Of a stretch of DNA of 5,930 nucleotides, positions 1 through 5,930 are shown piece by piece (the stretch's first letter is position 1; every line of letters begins with the position of its first letter). The translations under genes were made by a program, and so were the position numbers. The DNA is taken from NCBI GenBank assembly GCA_947584955.1, contig CANPWS010000080.1:1-5930 (forward strand). The letters are read 5' to 3'. Below the pieces are notes generated by a model. That model was not told the origin of the DNA. It did not search any database and saw only the letters and a list, made by a program, of their open reading frames with translations. The stretch is from an uncultured Bacilli bacterium (lineage in GTDB: Bacteria > Bacillota_I > Bacilli_A > RF39 > UBA660).

Positions 1-74
1 TTTAACCCTAGTTTTTTAGCAAATATATAATCTTGCTCATCCTCGAATTTAATTTTTCCGATAAATTTAGACAC
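1..74 (-). CDS. Possible 5' end of an unidentified gene (GTG start, runs off the left edge)
   Basis: This is an open frame of 24 full codons reading MSKFIGKIKFEDEQDYIFAK and then KLGL before it leaves the window. The composition, alternating charged and hydrophobic residues, looks like real protein. The only conventional start is the GTG at 74-72; in-frame stops lie about 20 bases upstream, so the gene cannot begin much earlier. It would start 22 bases after the sigma factor stop with no terminator between them, so cotranscription with the sigma gene is likely if it is real. The weak point is the ribosome binding site: only an A-rich AAAAAG precedes the GTG. I do not recognise the family from so short a stretch. 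A competing frame with an ATG at about 39 stops within 11 codons and is less convincing. Confidence 0.4.
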   Translation of the reverse strand, partial: MSKFIGKIKFEDEQDYIFAKKLGL

Positions 75-96
75 CGTCTTTTTAATATTTTATCAA

Positions 97-1311
97 TTAT
101 TTTTTTAATTTCTTAATCTTTTTTTCTTCATTACTCTCTTCTTGTAAATAACCATAATCTTCAAAAGCTTTAGTATTTCTTAATTTTTTAAGTGCTCTTT
201 TTTCTATTTGTCTTATTCTTTCACGAGAGACATTATAAATTTTAGAAATGTATCTTAATCCTTTAGGTTCACCATCAATAAATCCATATCGCAGTTCTAA
301 TATTTCTTTTTCTTTATTACTTAATACACTATTATTTAATATATCTTTTATATTATTTTTATCAAAATCTTCTTCAATATAATCTACATAATTATTAAAA
401 TAATCATCTACATGCTTATCATATTCTCCACTTTCATAAAGTAAATTATCAATACTTTCTACATCATAACATAATATTTCTAATTCAGAAACTTCTTCAT
501 TAGTAATATTAAGTTTTTCAGCTAATTCATTAATACTTGGTTCTCTATTTAAATCAATAGCAAGATTTGTTTTAGCTACTTTATATAAATTAATTTTTTC
601 TGTTACATAAACTGGTAATCTGATAATTCTTCCTTTATTTTCTATTGCTCTATTTATTGATCTTTTTATCCACCAGTAAGCATAAGTTGAAAATCTATAT
701 CCTAAAGTAACATCAAAAGTTTCAACGGCTCTCATAAGTCCAAGATTTCCTTCTTCTATTAAATCCATAATATCAAGACCTTGTCCAACCTTTTTTTTAG
801 CTATTGAAACTACTAATCTTAAATTACTTTCTATTAAAATATTTCTTGCTTCCATATTTCCATTTAAAATATCATAACATACTTTTTGCTCTTCTTCTCT
901 TGTAAGTATATGATAATTTAATTTATTTATATAACCAATATAGGCATTTTCAATATATAATTTATCTTGACTATTATTATCTAAATTTGAATCTTCATTT
1001 ACAAGCTCAATATTATTTAGTAAACAATATTCTTCAATAATTGTAATACAAAGATTATTTTTAAATACCCTTTCTAATTCTTCATAGCTTATCTTTTTTT
1101 TATTTTTAATAATTATTTTTATAATATTATTTAAATATTCATTCATTTTTAATAATTGTAAATGTTCACTTGAAAAAAATAATCTTTTTTTAATTAGATA
1201 TTGGACGATTTTTTTAAATTCTTCGGTAGCTTCGTTATATGTATTACATTCTTTAAAATTAATCGTTATATAATTAGAAATTTCTTCAATATTTTCATTA
1301 AATTTTATCAT
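97..1311 (-). CDS. RNA polymerase sigma-70 family factor, RpoD/SigA-like but divergent
   Basis: This 404-residue protein directs core RNA polymerase to promoters. Residues 64-106 (with ISYEELE and IELVNED) resemble region 1.1, the self-inhibitory domain typical of primary sigma factors. Region 1.2 is about 117-152. Region 2 is about 153-225 and includes NLRLVVSIAKK, DLIEEGNLGLM and GYRFSTYAYWW; the promoter-melting aromatics F207, Y210, W213 and W214 are kept. Region 3 is about 228-312, and region 4 about 320-380 with the -35 reading helix VSRERIRQIE at 361-370. Position 2.4 reads WWIKRSIN where RpoD has WWIRQAIT, so both -12-reading residues differ. Residues 1-63 extend beyond the usual start of region 1.1, and the C-terminus ends in a lysine-rich tail. 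The ATG at 1311 has the site AGAAAGGA just upstream. No dnaG precedes it, unlike many rpoD genes, so it may be a second, group-2 type factor. The family call is sure; housekeeping versus alternative role is open. Confidence 0.93.
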   Translation of the reverse strand: MIKFNENIEEISNYITINFKECNTYNEATEEFKKIVQYLIKKRLFFSSEHLQLLKMNEYLNNIIKIIIKNKKKISYEELERVFKNNLCITIIEEYCLLNNIELVNEDSNLDNNSQDKLYIENAYIGYINKLNYHILTREEEQKVCYDILNGNMEARNILIESNLRLVVSIAKKKVGQGLDIMDLIEEGNLGLMRAVETFDVTLGYRFSTYAYWWIKRSINRAIENKGRIIRLPVYVTEKINLYKVAKTNLAIDLNREPSINELAEKLNITNEEVSELEILCYDVESIDNLLYESGEYDKHVDDYFNNYVDYIEEDFDKNNIKDILNNSVLSNKEKEILELRYGFIDGEPKGLRYISKIYNVSRERIRQIEKRALKKLRNTKAFEDYGYLQEESNEEKKIKKLKK

Positions 1312-1358
1312 TTTATGATCCTTTCTAATTTTAAAAAATTAATTATTTATATATAAAA

Positions 1359-1386
1359 TCCCACTTAAGTTTTATACTTAATGGGA
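1359..1386 (-). terminator. Intrinsic terminator or attenuator between the 182-residue gene and the sigma gene
   Basis: Read on the minus strand, TCCCATTAAGT, a five-base loop and ACTTAAGTGGGA form an 11-bp stem with one bulged base, followed by TTTTATATATAA. It lies 17 bases past the stop of the upstream gene, so it probably ends that transcript. Only about 47 bases separate it from the sigma start codon and I see no good promoter there. It could therefore also act as a partial terminator that lowers sigma expression. The stem is AT-rich and the U-run short, so termination may be incomplete. Confidence 0.65.
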
Positions 1387-1403
1387 AAATTTATTTATTA
1401 TAA

Positions 1404-1952
1404 TTATAATTTTATATATTTTTTTGTTACATTTTTAGAATTAATATTAAGTAATTCTTCTTTTAACTGTTTTAAGTTATCTATTTTATTTATATTATTT
1501 GCAAGCTTTAAAGCATCAATAAAGTAATCTATATTTGGAAATAATTCTACACCAATTTCATCTAATAAACTTAATGCTTTAATTGTATCTTCTATTTCAA
1601 TACGATGATTTGTTTTTAAAACTTTTTCAAATTTAGTAATACTTCCAAATTTTTCTATAGTTAATAAATAACTGTTATTTAAATGGTTTAATAGCATATT
1701 TTTTTGTATATTAGCTGGTATGTTTGAATTATTTTTTGATATTATAGTAATATCATTTCCATTTAACGTAAAATATATTTTAGTACTATCTTCTGGAATT
1801 CTAATTGATAATATTTTATCTTCTTTATTTTTATTTTTACTTTCTTCTAAAAATTCTACCTTTTTCTCGTGATTATTTGATGTAGGCATTATATTTGAAA
1901 TAAGATTTTTTAATTTTATTTTTGTATTTGCTTTATTATATGAATACTCCAT
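1404..1952 (-). CDS. Hypothetical protein, 182 residues, upstream of the sigma factor
   Basis: I do not recognise this protein. It has no signal peptide, membrane segment, cysteine cluster or nucleotide-binding motif, so it should be a soluble cytoplasmic protein. Residues 1-45 are lysine/asparagine-rich and look flexible. Residues 47-73 (ILSIRIPEDSTKIYFTLNGN onward) have the alternating pattern of two or three beta strands. Residues 82-100 and 120-170 are predicted mostly helical by eye, and the tail is basic. The ATG at 1952 is preceded by AAGAAAGGGG at good spacing and by its own consensus promoter, so it is an independent transcription unit with a terminator after it. Its place directly before a sigma gene raises the possibility of a regulatory partner such as an anti-sigma protein, but nothing in the sequence itself shows this. 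Confidence 0.8.
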   Translation of the reverse strand: MEYSYNKANTKIKLKNLISNIMPTSNNHEKKVEFLEESKNKNKEDKILSIRIPEDSTKIYFTLNGNDITIISKNNSNIPANIQKNMLLNHLNNSYLLTIEKFGSITKFEKVLKTNHRIEIEDTIKALSLLDEIGVELFPNIDYFIDALKLANNINKIDNLKQLKEELLNINSKNVTKKYIKL

Positions 1953-1981
1953 AATAATTCCCCTTTCTTAAGCAGAAATAT

Positions 1982-2009
1982 ATTATAGATTATTTTTTTA
2001 TTTTGTCAA
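1982..2009 (-). promoter_or_regulatory. Consensus sigma-A promoter for the 182-residue gene
   Basis: On the minus strand TTGACA (2009-2004) and TATAAT (1987-1982) are separated by 16 bases, matching the consensus at all twelve positions. Transcription should begin near 1975, giving a leader of about 23 bases that is mostly the ribosome binding site AAGAAAGGGG. The phased T-tracts just upstream may strengthen it. Confidence 0.88.
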
Positions 2010-2020
2010 GTTTTTTATAA

Positions 2021-2057
2021 CTATTTTGCTATTTTTTGCTTTTTATAGCTTATTTTT
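2021..2057 (-). promoter_or_regulatory. Phased T-tract array with a small dyad upstream of the promoter
   Basis: On the plus strand GCT occurs at 2028, 2038 and 2048, exactly 10 bases apart, each followed by a seven-base A/T tract (ATTTTTT, TTTTATA, TATTTTT). This phasing matches the DNA helical repeat and is the classic arrangement for intrinsic curvature. The outer elements also form a dyad, GCTAT (2028-2032) with ATAGC (2045-2049). The block ends about 12 bases upstream of the -35 box, where an UP element or an activator site would sit. A bending or UP-element role is inferred. Confidence 0.45.
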
Positions 2058-2077
2058 CTATAAAGGATTATAACAAA

Positions 2078-2125
2078 GTAAACAAAAACCATTAATTTTT
2101 AGAAAACTTTTCTAAAAATAATGGT
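2078..2125 (-). terminator. Strong intrinsic terminator of the coiled-coil operon, overlapping the DUF1292-like gene end
   Basis: Positions 2088-2125 form a hairpin of about 17 base pairs with a single bulged A and a three-base loop (arms ACCATTA + TTTTTAGAAA and the complement). On the minus strand the stem ends in GG and runs into TTTTTGTTTACTTTG. The stop codon TAA (2094-2092) and roughly the last ten codons of the small gene lie inside the stem. It should end the three-gene transcript that starts near 5623. Confidence 0.87.
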
Positions 2126-2346
2126 AATATTTCTTTTAATTTAGATTCTCCAGTAATTTCTTCAATATATGTTTTTCCATTTTCGTTATTTGAAATAACT
2201 ATTTTATAATTGTCTTTTATGTCTGTTTCAGCATTGTTAAGTTCTGCAATATAATAATATTCTACACCATCTTTTTCTGCTTTTTCTATTATTAAATATT
2301 CTTCGTCATTACCTAAAGTAATTACTTTATTTACCTCTAGTGTCAT
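2092..2346 (-). CDS. Small acidic DUF1292-like (YrzB-type) protein
   Basis: This 84-residue soluble protein has the build of the DUF1292 family, small Firmicutes proteins of unknown function. A first beta-rich half reads NDEEYLIIEKAEKDGVEYYY (13-32), the family's 'EYxVLxxxxxDGxEYxxL' pattern. A second strand pair follows at 47-65 (YKIVISNNENGKTYIEEI), and a C-terminal helix (68-82) corresponds to the family's 'DEEEWxxVxxxFxE' end. No catalytic motif is visible. It is third in the operon, 15 bases after the stop of the 581-residue gene, and that gap holds its site AAGAAAGGAG. Its last codons double as the terminator stem. The family assignment is by pattern only and is moderate; the gene itself is convincing. 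Confidence 0.72.
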   Translation of the reverse strand: MTLEVNKVITLGNDEEYLIIEKAEKDGVEYYYIAELNNAETDIKDNYKIVISNNENGKTYIEEITGESKLKEILPLFLEKFSKN

Positions 2347-2361
2347 AATTCTCCTTTCTTC

Positions 2362-4107
2362 CTAGTTAGGGAAAACTCCATTTATATCAAGTGTTTCCAT
2401 ATTTTCAGTCCAAGCGAATTGATCTTTTTGATCATTATCTACACTTTGATAAGAATTATTTTGTGAAAAATTATCATTAGACATACTATAGTTATAGTCA
2501 TAGTTATTGGTATTTAAATTATCAGGTGTATTAATTATATTAACGTTTTCATTTATATTATTATTTTCTTGCTCTTTAACATCATAATTATATGTATTAT
2601 CTACATTTGGCGTATAATTTTGTGTATAGCTTTCTTGTGGTTCATTATTTAAATTTTCTTTAGAATCTAAAGTTTCATTTAATTCAGAAGGTACCCAATA
2701 TAAGTCCTCTGGTTCTTCTTTTACTTCTGGCTTTTTATTTATACTTACTTCAGGCATTTCTGGGAAGTCTTCCTCTTTTTTAGCGTTTATTTCTAGCATA
2801 TCTGCGACTCTTTTCATAACACTAATTGATTTTAATCTTGATAAGCCTAAATTCATCGAAGGAATGGTTTCCATTTTTATTACTTCATTTGGACTTACAA
2901 CTTCTTCAACATAAGAATCTTTAATAGCATCCTCATCTTCTGCACTATCCATTAAATCTTCAAATAAATTTGCTGAATCTTCTTTGTCTTCTTCAATAAC
3001 ATCATCATGATCATAGGTATCAATTAATGAATATTCTTTAAGTATTGCTAATATTTCAGGCTTTTTTACTTCTTTTCTTAATTCTTCTAATTTATTTTCT
3101 TTTAATCTTATTCTTTCTGTTAAACTATTAATTGTATCAACATTTTCTTTTTCATTAGCAATTTCGCTACTTTGTTCACTAATTAAATCAGATATTGATA
3201 CTAATAAATCTTTACTATTTATTCCTAATTCACTTCTTAATATAAGTCTATCTTGTAAAAGGGTTCTAATTTCTTCTCTTTTAGCATATAAATCACTATA
3301 TTCATGTTCTTTTGCTTCAATTAACTTGTATAAATTAAGCATCATTTCTTTTTCTTTTACATTATAGTAATTCTTTTTAGAATTTTCAACAAATGCACTG
3401 TATTCATTTTCTAATTCTCCATTTATTCCAGATGATTTTAAATTATTAAATGCTGTAATAAATGTATCTTTTTGATCACGTGCTTCTCTAATTTCTAATT
3501 GTAATTCTGCAATTTCTTTATCTACATCAGATAAATCTACTTTAGAAAACAAATCCATTTCATATAATATATTAATAAATGAATTATATAATGTTTCTTC
3601 TAATCTAGCATTTTTTGATTCATTTACTGATTTTTGTCTATATTCTCCAGCTAATTCTTCTTTTAGCTTTTCTAGTTCTGTTTCATTTACATTTATAAGT
3701 TTTGAACTTTCTAAATAAGATCTTATTGTATCTAGTCTTTTTTCATAAAATTCTAATTCAGATAATTTATCTATATATTCTAAATCTGTTAATTCTTTAT
3801 TAGTTACGTTCCTATAATCTTCCATTAAATCTTTTCTTTTTTCGCTTCTAGCAACAATAAAAGCTATTAAATCTTTTAATCTCTTTTCTTCTGCTTCAAG
3901 TGTTTCTGTATTATAAAACATCGTCTTAAGTGTTTTATTATATTCTTCATTTAACATATTATCTATGCTTAATGAAGCATCTTTGAATCTTTTTAATGTT
4001 GTACTATCTAAACTATCACCACTTAATAAAACACTCATTCTTAATATTTTGTATAAATCATATTTAACTTTTTCTTTACTATCTACATTATCATTATGCT
4101 TTAACAT
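2362..4107 (-). CDS. Coiled-coil protein, 581 residues, paralogue of its upstream neighbour, with a long Asn/Tyr-rich tail
   Basis: The function is unknown. Residues 10-135 and 141-350 are almost wholly charged, leucine-spaced helix typical of coiled coil or helical bundle. There is no signal peptide, membrane segment, Walker motif or SMC hinge, so it is likely a cytoplasmic scaffold-type protein. The helical core is colinear with the gene before it: EEYNKTL and AEEKRLKDLI near 54-81, MDLFSK at 184-189, and EYSDLYAKREEI at 269-280 match segments of the neighbour in the same order. Residues 366-404 are strongly acidic. After a short helix at 421-440 the remainder is disordered, with proline/glutamate at 445-470 and an Asn/Tyr/Gln-rich stretch at 484-562, ending in the hydrophobic motif INGVFPN. 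The ATG at 4107 has GGAAGGTG upstream and lies 12 bases after the preceding stop. An ATG four bases further upstream is out of frame. Confidence 0.88.
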   Translation of the reverse strand: MLKHNDNVDSKEKVKYDLYKILRMSVLLSGDSLDSTTLKRFKDASLSIDNMLNEEYNKTLKTMFYNTETLEAEEKRLKDLIAFIVARSEKRKDLMEDYRNVTNKELTDLEYIDKLSELEFYEKRLDTIRSYLESSKLINVNETELEKLKEELAGEYRQKSVNESKNARLEETLYNSFINILYEMDLFSKVDLSDVDKEIAELQLEIREARDQKDTFITAFNNLKSSGINGELENEYSAFVENSKKNYYNVKEKEMMLNLYKLIEAKEHEYSDLYAKREEIRTLLQDRLILRSELGINSKDLLVSISDLISEQSSEIANEKENVDTINSLTERIRLKENKLEELRKEVKKPEILAILKEYSLIDTYDHDDVIEEDKEDSANLFEDLMDSAEDEDAIKDSYVEEVVSPNEVIKMETIPSMNLGLSRLKSISVMKRVADMLEINAKKEEDFPEMPEVSINKKPEVKEEPEDLYWVPSELNETLDSKENLNNEPQESYTQNYTPNVDNTYNYDVKEQENNNINENVNIINTPDNLNTNNYDYNYSMSNDNFSQNNSYQSVDNDQKDQFAWTENMETLDINGVFPN

Positions 4108-4119
4108 ACATACACCTTC

Positions 4120-5610
4120 CTATCCTAAATTTTCTTTTAATGGTGGAAATATATCTTCTTGATCACGGAACATATCATTTTCTAATACCCTATTTTCTTT
4201 TTTAGGTTTTTCGCTTCCAACTATTTCTGGCTTTAAATTATTATTTTTTATTATTGGTATTGAATCAACTTCTAACATTGAATTAAATGAAATTGTATCT
4301 TCTTTTTTTTCTTTAGGAATACTTGCTACTACACTATTAAATCCTATTTTTTCTTCTTTATTATCTTTTTCTATTTTTTTCTCTGATGTAAATCTTTTTT
4401 GTTCTTCTAATAATCTTTTAGTTAATTGTTCTTGAGATTTTTTTCTTTCTTCAAGTATTTGATTTTGTTTTCTTCTTTTTTCATCTTCTTCTCTTTTTTC
4501 TTCAATTAACTTTCTTTGTCTTTCTTCATATTCTTTTTTACGTTGTTCTTGTAATAATTCTTCTTGTCTTTTCTTTTCATTTTCTATTAAAACATCAAGA
4601 ACTTCTCTAAATTCTCTGCTGTTATTTTCATCAGTTATTTTTTCAAGTTCATTATACTTTGCTTCTCTTTCACTAGTTAATGTTTCATAAGTATTCATAT
4701 CTTGTTTTTCAATTTTAATTGTATTATATTGTTTATTTAACTCATCACCAATTATACCATATAGATAACTATTTGATATTTCTACTAATATATCATTCAT
4801 TTCTTCTCTTTTTGCTAAAAGATCATCATAATCACTAATTGCATTATCAAATATTTCTATAAGCTTTAAAGTATATTTTTTTTCTTTTGCTTGCTCATAA
4901 CTTAATGTTACTGATGATAATAAACTATCACATTCTATAATTAAATCTTCTCTTCCTTTAGATTTAGCTTTTTTAACATTTTCTTTAGCTTTAATTAAGG
5001 AATATTCTAATTCATTATATTCTGCTTCAATTATATCTTTTTGATCTGCTAGTTTATATAAATCTAATTTATTAAAAATTCTACTTAATAAACTAATCAT
5101 TTTCTTTTCTAAACTAGTATTTAAATATTTATTGTTTTTAATTTTTTTAACTGCTTCACTAATTTTGTCATCTAATTCATTTATTTCTCTATTTAAAACA
5201 TTTTCTTTACTTAAGTTTTCACTAAACTTATCTATAATTTTTACTTTTCTTTTTAATTCTCCAATTCTGTCTTCGCCCATGATGTTAGGGTATGCTACAG
5301 CATAACCAGTTATCTCTTTGTGTTTCTTTCTTTCATCTTTAATATAGTTTATTCTATCTTCAATTAATTTTATTAATTTTAATAATCTTTCTTTTTCTTC
5401 ACTAATTAAAAATGTTTCTTGTTCTAATAGAGACATGTATTTTTCTTCATACAATGAATTTGTTTCAACTAGCAATTTTTCTTCTATTTTACTCATTTGA
5501 ATGCACATCTTTGCTTTATCTTCTTCGCTAGCTAAAATATCCAAACTTCTTAAAAACATTTCATACTGCCTAGTTAATTGTGTTATTTGACGACTAGTGT
5601 ACTCTAGCAT
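4120..5610 (-). CDS. Coiled-coil protein, 496 residues, first gene of the operon
   Basis: The function is unknown. Residues 1-100 and 113-280 are helical, rich in Lys, Glu and Leu. The break at 101-112 (TGYAVAYPNIMG) is the one clearly non-helical, uncharged stretch. A second block at 332-418 is an unbroken, highly charged coil (KKRQEELLQEQRKK and similar), probably a single long alpha helix. The tail (421-496) is disordered and holds a repeated motif, IGFNSVVASIP at 422-432 and ISFNSMLEVDSIP at 440-452, then the acidic end MFRDQEDIFPPLKENLG. No enzymatic motif, signal peptide or membrane segment is present. It shares a colinear core with the next gene, including DYDDLLAKREEM at 260-271, so the two are probably tandem paralogues acting together. 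The ATG at 5610 has the strong site GAGGTGG, and a consensus promoter ends 20 bases upstream. Confidence 0.88.
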   Translation of the reverse strand: MLEYTSRQITQLTRQYEMFLRSLDILASEEDKAKMCIQMSKIEEKLLVETNSLYEEKYMSLLEQETFLISEEKERLLKLIKLIEDRINYIKDERKKHKEITGYAVAYPNIMGEDRIGELKRKVKIIDKFSENLSKENVLNREINELDDKISEAVKKIKNNKYLNTSLEKKMISLLSRIFNKLDLYKLADQKDIIEAEYNELEYSLIKAKENVKKAKSKGREDLIIECDSLLSSVTLSYEQAKEKKYTLKLIEIFDNAISDYDDLLAKREEMNDILVEISNSYLYGIIGDELNKQYNTIKIEKQDMNTYETLTSEREAKYNELEKITDENNSREFREVLDVLIENEKKRQEELLQEQRKKEYEERQRKLIEEKREEDEKRRKQNQILEERKKSQEQLTKRLLEEQKRFTSEKKIEKDNKEEKIGFNSVVASIPKEKKEDTISFNSMLEVDSIPIIKNNNLKPEIVGSEKPKKENRVLENDMFRDQEDIFPPLKENLG

Positions 5611-5629
5611 ACAACCACCTCTTATTATA

Positions 5630-5657
5630 ATTATATAATAAATTTAATTTTTGTCAA
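5630..5657 (-). promoter_or_regulatory. Consensus sigma-A promoter of the coiled-coil operon
   Basis: On the minus strand TTGACA (5657-5652) and TATAAT (5635-5630) are 16 bases apart, the same design as the promoter of the 182-residue gene. A second TATAAT at 5629-5624 would give a 22-base spacer and is unlikely to be used. The predicted start near 5623 leaves a leader of only about 13 bases, almost entirely the GAGGTGG ribosome binding site (5621-5615). Confidence 0.87.
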
Positions 5658-5775
5658 TGAATATATTAAAAATTAAGCAAAAAAATTATTAAATTTTATT
5701 ATTTTTTATATTATTTATATTATTCCCAGTTTATATTTTTTTATTATAAATATTATAATTTTTAATATAATAATA

Positions 5776-5804
5776 TTGACAGTAATCGCTTATTAAAATA
5801 TAAT
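5776..5804 (+). promoter_or_regulatory. Consensus sigma-A promoter of the hydrolase gene
   Basis: TTGACA (5776-5781) and TATAAT (5799-5804) are separated by exactly 17 bases, a full match to the consensus. Transcription should start near 5811, right at the AGGTGAT ribosome binding site (5811-5817), so the leader would be about 12 bases. The A/T-rich DNA at 5680-5775 between this and the divergent promoter holds no gene or hairpin that I can support and may serve as UP-element DNA. Confidence 0.88.
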
Positions 5805-5822
5805 TTTCATAGGTGATTATAT

Positions 5823-5930
5823 ATGATTTTTAGAAAAGCTATTTTACTTATTCATGGTTTAGCTGGAGGAAATTATGATTACGAATCTTTAGGTAATGAT
5901 TTACAACTTAATTTTGATTTTGATGTATAT
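5823..5930 (+). CDS. Alpha/beta hydrolase (esterase/lipase-like), N-terminal part only
   Basis: Only 36 residues are in the window; the gene continues past the right edge. The start MIFRKAILLIHGLAGG shows a hydrophobic beta strand (6-10) ending in the HG pair (H11-G12) and a glycine-rich turn, the oxyanion-hole segment of alpha/beta hydrolases. NYDYESLGNDLQ (17-28) is the following helix, like the 'PxDxxxLxxxL' of carboxylesterases and lysophospholipases of the serine aminopeptidase S33 type. No signal peptide is seen, so a cytoplasmic enzyme is expected. The nucleophile serine and the rest of the triad lie outside the window, so substrate and activity cannot be judged. The ATG at 5823 follows AGGTGAT at good spacing and its own perfect promoter. 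It is divergent from the coiled-coil operon. Confidence 0.82.
   Translation, partial: MIFRKAILLIHGLAGGNYDYESLGNDLQLNFDFDVY

Follow-up and report, generated by a model that had tools for sequence, protein, structure and literature searches.

What role do two large coiled-coil proteins play that are encoded side by side in the genome of an uncultured member of the Bacilli, and do they act together? We analyzed a 5,930-nucleotide stretch of DNA (NCBI GenBank assembly GCA_947584955.1, contig CANPWS010000080.1, positions 1 to 5,930; here called the window), which carries on its minus strand gene A (4120-5610; coiled-coil protein, 496 amino acids) and gene B (2362-4107; coiled-coil paralogue of A, 581 amino acids), both taken from the open reading frame (ORF) list. 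Both ORFs were found where a preliminary description of the window had placed them, with 12 bases (4108-4119) between them, and each ATG is preceded by a purine-rich stretch resembling ribosome sites. That description, made from the sequence alone, had proposed an old duplication giving a heteromeric scaffold or filament pair. We put at roughly 0.6 the probability that A and B constitute a cytoplasmic scaffold of two subunits whose disordered arms bear peptides.

The four colinear landmarks on which the duplication had been proposed were all present (EEKYMSL at A55 and EEYNKTL at B54; SEEKERLLKLI at A70 and AEEKRLKDLI at B72; LDLYKL at A182 and MDLFSK at B184; DYDDLLAKREEM at A260 and EYSDLYAKREEI at B269, the last identical at 8 of 12 residues), every pair within 10 residues of the same position in both chains. 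Direct comparison by BLASTP gave an expect value (E) of 1e-6 (27 % over A164-325/B166-343). Sequences for profiles were filtered by length (440-650 amino acids for A, >540 for B) and at 80 % identity; the first A alignment (A1) held 49 of 50 representatives (P0010 left out), the wider A alignment (A3, 59 rows) combined 36 of the 49 representative (P) rows with 23 loci, and the wider B alignment (A4, 45 rows) combined 21 P rows with the window and 23 loci. A first profile-profile comparison (49 A rows, 22 B rows) yielded 98.1 % (E 1e-13, 292 columns), and comparison of the wider profile hidden Markov models (HMMs) with hhalign (59 A rows, 45 B rows) yielded 99.5 % (E 1.7e-22, 323 columns). The core was homologous as proposed, but its suggested limits, residues 50-300, were too short: homology spans A16-341 (4588-5565, minus strand) and B19-359 (3031-4053, minus strand).

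Because coiled coils resemble one another, the B profile columns were shuffled in blocks of seven, keeping composition and heptads; the real comparison reached E 7.6e-22, the best of 24 shuffles E 0.0027, and the reversed profile E 0.0044. Two long-helix families from the same genomes, the b-like (18 rows) and gamma (19 rows) proteins of an F1-like ATPase operon described below, matched A and B at E 0.069-0.54. An A profile with no B sequence in it picked up the neighboring B ORF in 16/23 loci; apart from these and A itself, it matched none of the ORFs of ≥40 amino acids in the 23. AlphaFold models made from separate alignments had colinear helix borders in A (29-63, 69-101, 116-181, 191-218, 221-254, 261-277, and 282-329) and B (35-62, 70-102, 118-183, 192-225, 231-264, 270-294, and 303-347). 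From these controls and the colinear predicted helices, the duplication is therefore real, its profile homology lying beyond that of heptad-block shuffles. A quick tree was built from 79 chosen rows (7/36 A P rows and 4/21 B P rows included; the A of L021 left out; L numbers denote loci and G numbers genomes). All A rows formed one clade (support 99), so the A/B split appears to predate the sampled lineages; the great age ascribed to the duplication is upheld on the A side, and the B side of the tree was poorly resolved. Two B-type rows, B3_L028 and B3_L069, had very long branches and fell outside their group.

Mean predicted local distance difference test (pLDDT) values were 80 for A, whose helices lie between residues 7 and 409, and 72 for B. 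Charged residues made up 41 % (A) and 35 % (B), and 19-residue hydropathy, peaking at 0.71 (A) and 0.75 (B), revealed no hydrophobic stretch of membrane-segment length. The C-terminal tails had been described as long and disordered, and most of their length was indeed modeled at pLDDT <50 (A 408-447 and 459-485; B 368-382, 385-401, and 443-570), but they are not featureless. The B tail contains a helix (residues 420-437, LGLSRLKSISVMKRVADM; 2797-2850, minus strand; alignment and AlphaFold model) in which K426 and V434 do not vary across 45 sequences, among them B copies of about 20 % identity. Near the A terminus, in the disordered tail, lies an FPPL peptide (residues 488-491; 4138-4149, minus strand; alignment of the A family) whose F488 and P489 show ≥90 % conservation (59 sequences), and B ends in FPN (residues 579-581; 2365-2373, minus strand), where all 22 aligned sequences of the window's clade have F579 and P580. 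The pattern FP.[ILM] occurred in 49/59 A tails (200 shuffles: mean, 2.9; maximum, 8), and the looser [FILMV]P.[ILMV] in 41/45 B tails (shuffle maximum, 31); the rows are related, so these figures are descriptive, neither probabilities nor a test of independence. We infer that the Phe-Pro type peptides are docking peptides.

As the preliminary description had supposed, A and B fall into no described family: Pfam at 1e-3 matched neither the window pair nor any of the 59 A and 45 B alignment members, and searches of NCBIfam, PHROGs, and PADLOC placed the window pair in no family. Only sub-threshold Pfam and NCBIfam matches to other families were obtained, and no P-loop ATPase head was detected with these models, which sets A and B apart from Smc, Rad50, and MukB arms and from Smc/Rad50/RecN membership; structural Z scores against such arms were in a range common for helical models.

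The pairing seen in the window held wherever A was found: in 28/28 genomes (23 plus G064, G138, G154, G220, and G318), B adjoined A in the same orientation, separated from it by -19 to 119 bases. A small gene was scored after B in 27/28 cassettes; in the 28th (L016) its ORF runs in from B. In five loci (L012, L016-L019), B was too diverged for the first B profile and was recognized by position and tail; the wider B profile recognizes these five genes, but includes them. The B beside A in L072 is also strongly diverged. Bacteria with genomes of ~0.8 to 1.3 Mb retain two large putative scaffold proteins side by side. Genomes with a single copy, which had been named as grounds for doubt, occur on one side only: A never stood without B (28/28), and G043 and G230 have a B-family gene and no A. 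In G230 (0.8 Mb), where no A was found, the sole B-family gene is a copy behind the gamma gene of the F1-like operon. The B-like gene of G043 (L055:4037-5632) has a small gene, DUF1292-like by look, on each side.

In the mechanism that we propose, an old duplication would have produced A and B, kept as one putative operon (A, B, and the small DUF1292-like gene). Each protein would be mostly a helical rod of ~350 to 400 residues, and the A rod would most likely pair with the B rod. The disordered C-terminal arms would present short Phe-Pro type peptides, joined in B by the conserved helix, and both would dock partners. The best-surviving alternative, in which A and B are separate homomeric scaffolds with different clients and are adjacent only through tandem duplication and shared regulation, would explain the G043 gene without A and the far-diverged cassette B of G016-G019 and G318 (stem branch, 2.14 in the quick tree), whose genomes hold a further B copy (B2) elsewhere. 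We consider it rather unlikely, since the unbroken 28/28 association on one strand and at short gaps persists in several different neighborhoods.

Those neighborhoods vary by lineage (scpA-scpB in L001, a CofD-family gene and whiA in L008, rplM-rpsI in L016; neighbors were labeled by Pfam in these three loci and by look in the others), so that the cassette stays together while its surroundings change among housekeeping genes. A pair serving chromosome organization or segregation as an accessory of Smc-ScpAB would fit L001, where scpA and scpB lie downstream (Pfam), followed by a ruvB-like gene and a smc-like gene two genes past scpB (by look), and perhaps L002, L004, L006, L007, and L020, where genes of roughly like size and order occur (judged by length only). 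With rplM-rpsI or the CofD-family gene and whiA as neighbors in other lineages, and with no member of either family matched by Pfam, such a role is improbable. A cluster of transfer RNA (tRNA) genes, Leu-Ser-Met-Asp-Phe, was seen just upstream of A in 6/7 loci scanned, in either orientation (L003, L005, L008, L016, L072, and L074); L013 has four of these tRNAs, at its far end.

A possible client of the two-subunit scaffold was met in relatives. Among the window's own ORFs, Pfam and NCBIfam searches found no ATPase genes, and relatives carry an F1-like operon (L024-L031, L043-L053, L070, and L071) which, where read throughout, has the order two transmembrane (TM) proteins, c-like, b-like, alpha, beta, epsilon-like, TM protein, gamma, and B-type protein. 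Pfam backs c, alpha, beta, and gamma; the b-like (without a Pfam match), epsilon-like, and TM proteins were named by position, size, and look. Alpha scored 301 bits against an ordinary F1 chain and 246 against a Mycoplasma mobile G1-ATPase chain; beta scored 372 bits against the best natural ordinary F1 chain and 298 against its M. mobile counterpart. The c-like protein exceeded the PF00137 cut-off in 19/25 genomes, with one hit only in each, and the acidic residue of helix 2 was absent in 19/19 c-like proteins read (G050 included); the column matching the carboxylate of solved c-rings is Ala in L026. Subunit a (PF00119) was found in 0/25 genomes, with 9/14 control genomes positive. The operon was not assigned to the ordinary F1Fo ATP synthases, as neither subunit a (25 genomes) nor the helix-2 carboxylate (19 c-like proteins) was found. 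We infer that the operon encodes a rotary ATPase that cannot move ions. In G050 (L056) the operon is diverged (c-like, 51 %; gamma, 39 % identity) and differs in gene order, with an alpha-like domain on one 1,416-amino-acid ORF. Proteins with an N-terminal hydrophobic segment lie beside the operon in some relatives (L026:9588-10379, L031:8757-11142, L047:8909-10883, and L049:5558-6891); their beginnings look TasA/camelysin-like, the best Pfam match being M73 (E 0.0014, below cut-off), and in L049 a signal-peptidase match, likewise below threshold, lies close by.

When whole genomes were searched with the B profile, more B copies came to light in this operon. A B2 copy of 589 to 640 amino acids directly follows the gamma gene in G016-G019 and G318 (that of G017 cut by a contig end), and a shorter copy (B3) does so in G001, G002, G004, G009, G020, and G230 (that of G009 cut by a contig end), so that a B-type gene stands directly behind gamma in 11/22 genomes where gamma and the following gene were read; G050 is outside this count, given its gene order. 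The B2 copies are perhaps the displaced originals of the diverged cassette B. In the other 11 genomes (G003, G005, G008, G013, G014, G015, G021, G022, G023, G064, and G138), the post-gamma protein, of 56 to 317 amino acids, was unmatched by the A or B profile. FP.[ILM] occurred in 13/20 post-gamma tails (shuffle maximum, 4; one gene accounts for two of the 20 rows). Of 899 ORFs (some duplicates, from overlapping loci), none but post-gamma proteins carried the 12-residue motif [FMLI]P.[ILV]..[FIL]G[ST]V.P: it stands in coil-less proteins of nine genomes (L046-L053 and L070), is fused with a complete B coil in four (L024, L026, L027, and L071), and in L069 is fused with a shorter coil. L025 and L028, truncated by contig ends, were not entered in the motif test, which also passed over L040, L056, L068, and L070; L066 and L071 represent one gene. 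By a fusion-type argument, which is not direct evidence on cassette A or B, B-type coils appear to work with the F1-like operon.

An F1-like gamma was detected in 21/28 A-B genomes (18/23 plus G064, G138, and G318; the gamma alignment, A5, drew on 17 of the gammas read). Across 395 genomes of the class, four gammas scored at least 446 bits, all in A-B carriers; G050 scored 198, and the rest scored ≤67. B and F1-like gamma co-occurred in 6/7 against 1/90 (97 genomes of the order; Fisher 4.9e-8, uncorrected for kinship, or 1.9e-7 with the marginal gamma hit of G089 [E 5e-4], which was left out of the count). On such co-occurrence, and with a B-type paralogue inside the operon of some lineages, the F1-like rotary ATPase without an ion path is a tentative candidate client of the A-B scaffold. 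The fuller picture, an internal scaffold of A, B, and the operon paralogue that anchors or chains an ion-decoupled rotary ATPase, a purely mechanical motor outside mycoplasmas perhaps acting on adjacent surface proteins, is more doubtful still. Were the pair to serve such a motor, mechanical use of a rotary ATPase would extend beyond mycoplasmas, and its origin could be tested in other Bacilli.

The nearest known analogues of this possible working, not the family of A and B, are the Type 2 and Type 3 F1-like ATPases of mycoplasmas. The Type 2 gliding machinery of M. mobile (G1-ATPase chains, GliD, internal "jellyfish") offers a lead on function in that it adds lineage-specific scaffold proteins to an F1-like ATPase; the operon of the relatives shares with it alpha, beta, gamma, and epsilon-like genes and membrane proteins, and has a B-type coil in 11/22 genomes, whereas it also has b-like and c-like genes, and its alpha and beta are nearer to ordinary F1. 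Type 2 and 3 clusters are described without homologues of a, b, or c (PMC3369863); the relatives' operon, having a c-like gene (PF00137) and a b-like protein, was not assigned to them. The Type 3 F1-like X0 ATPase, which co-occurs with MIB-MIP partner genes and is described as mycoplasma-specific (PMC12994834), is alike in having dedicated partner genes and differs from the relatives' operon in its membrane genes and partners. A and B were likewise not assigned to Type 2 or Type 3 cluster proteins, as their cassettes lie at loci other than the ATPase operons where both were seen. That A and B are instead relatives of the peripheral stalk (b/delta) of the F1-like ATPase is suggested by the B-type copies in the operon and by the M. 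mobile motor, whose bridge protein GliD has a proposed origin in b and delta (PMC11864180); the operon, however, has its own b-like gene, and A (E 0.069) and B (E 0.12) hardly match 18 b-like sequences, so this origin is very improbable and membership in the stalk b family was rejected. Although low-complexity helical proteins often match weakly, as the shuffles reaching E 0.0027 illustrate, a merely generic likeness of lysine- and glutamate-rich coiled coils is refuted by the shuffle, reversed, and long-helix controls and by the A profile's choice of adjacent B ORFs, and we give it next to no credence.

Several observations weigh against the two-subunit scaffold or its link to the motor. In G043 a diverged B-like gene stands alone, the genome having yielded no A. 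When the quick tree is rooted at its midpoint, B3_L028 and six diverged B rows come to lie on the side of A (supports, 83 to 94). Enrichment of FP.[ILM] is weak in B (13/45 tails against a shuffle maximum of 10), and the 12-residue motif and its companion occur in 0/59 A and 0/45 B alignment members, the motif pattern itself having been designed after the tails had been seen. Gamma was not found in 7/28 A-B genomes (G006, G007, G010, G011, G012, G154, and G220), and G050 has the diverged operon and neither A nor B that we could find. Among 25 genomes searched for both, those without gamma and those without PF00137 are the same six (G006, G007, G010, G011, G012, and G043), and G006, G007, G010, and G011 form one A clade in the quick tree; because the absences coincide and the four genomes group together, loss of the motor is likely real, and the A-B pair has likely been kept without it in that clade.

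The family is limited, among the genomes sampled, to a small part of one order, although it is not uncommon in public sequence databases. The order of G008 yielded B-family genes in 7/97 and 20/385 genomes (overlapping samples), and the class in 5/395 genomes, all five within that order and already seen. Among candidates scored, A had 170 public protein clusters at E ≤0.001, counting its own, and B had 383; 120 of the 170 (119 besides its own) and 120 of the 383 were listed. The relatives of A listed there include some at 60-69 % identity, several of these on contigs of 100-500 kb. Scanning of genome contigs recovered 23 loci, the nearest 47 % identical to A in the best segment, mostly labeled as Bacilli, Bacillales, Tenericutes, and Erysipelotrichaceae metagenome-assembled genomes, with two Clostridia/Clostridiales and one "uncultured bacterium."

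The minus strand of the window holds five complete genes, A and B among them. Directly downstream of B is an 84-amino-acid gene (2092-2346), DUF1292-like by a sub-threshold match only (PF06949; Pfam E 0.016, 16.5 bits, under the cut-off of 24); the similar small genes of four relatives had no Pfam match at 1e-3. Between it and a sigma-70 family gene (97-1311; 404 amino acids; Pfam/NCBIfam search) lies a 182-amino-acid gene (1404-1952) with no family match. The sigma-70 protein has regions 2, 3, and 4, and no RpoD or RpoS model reached its cut-off among the 25 of 46 NCBIfam matches listed. On the plus strand, a divergent reading frame, which we take to be alpha/beta hydrolase-like from its look, begins at 5824-5930 (MIFRKAILLIHGLAGG...) and is cut by the window end.

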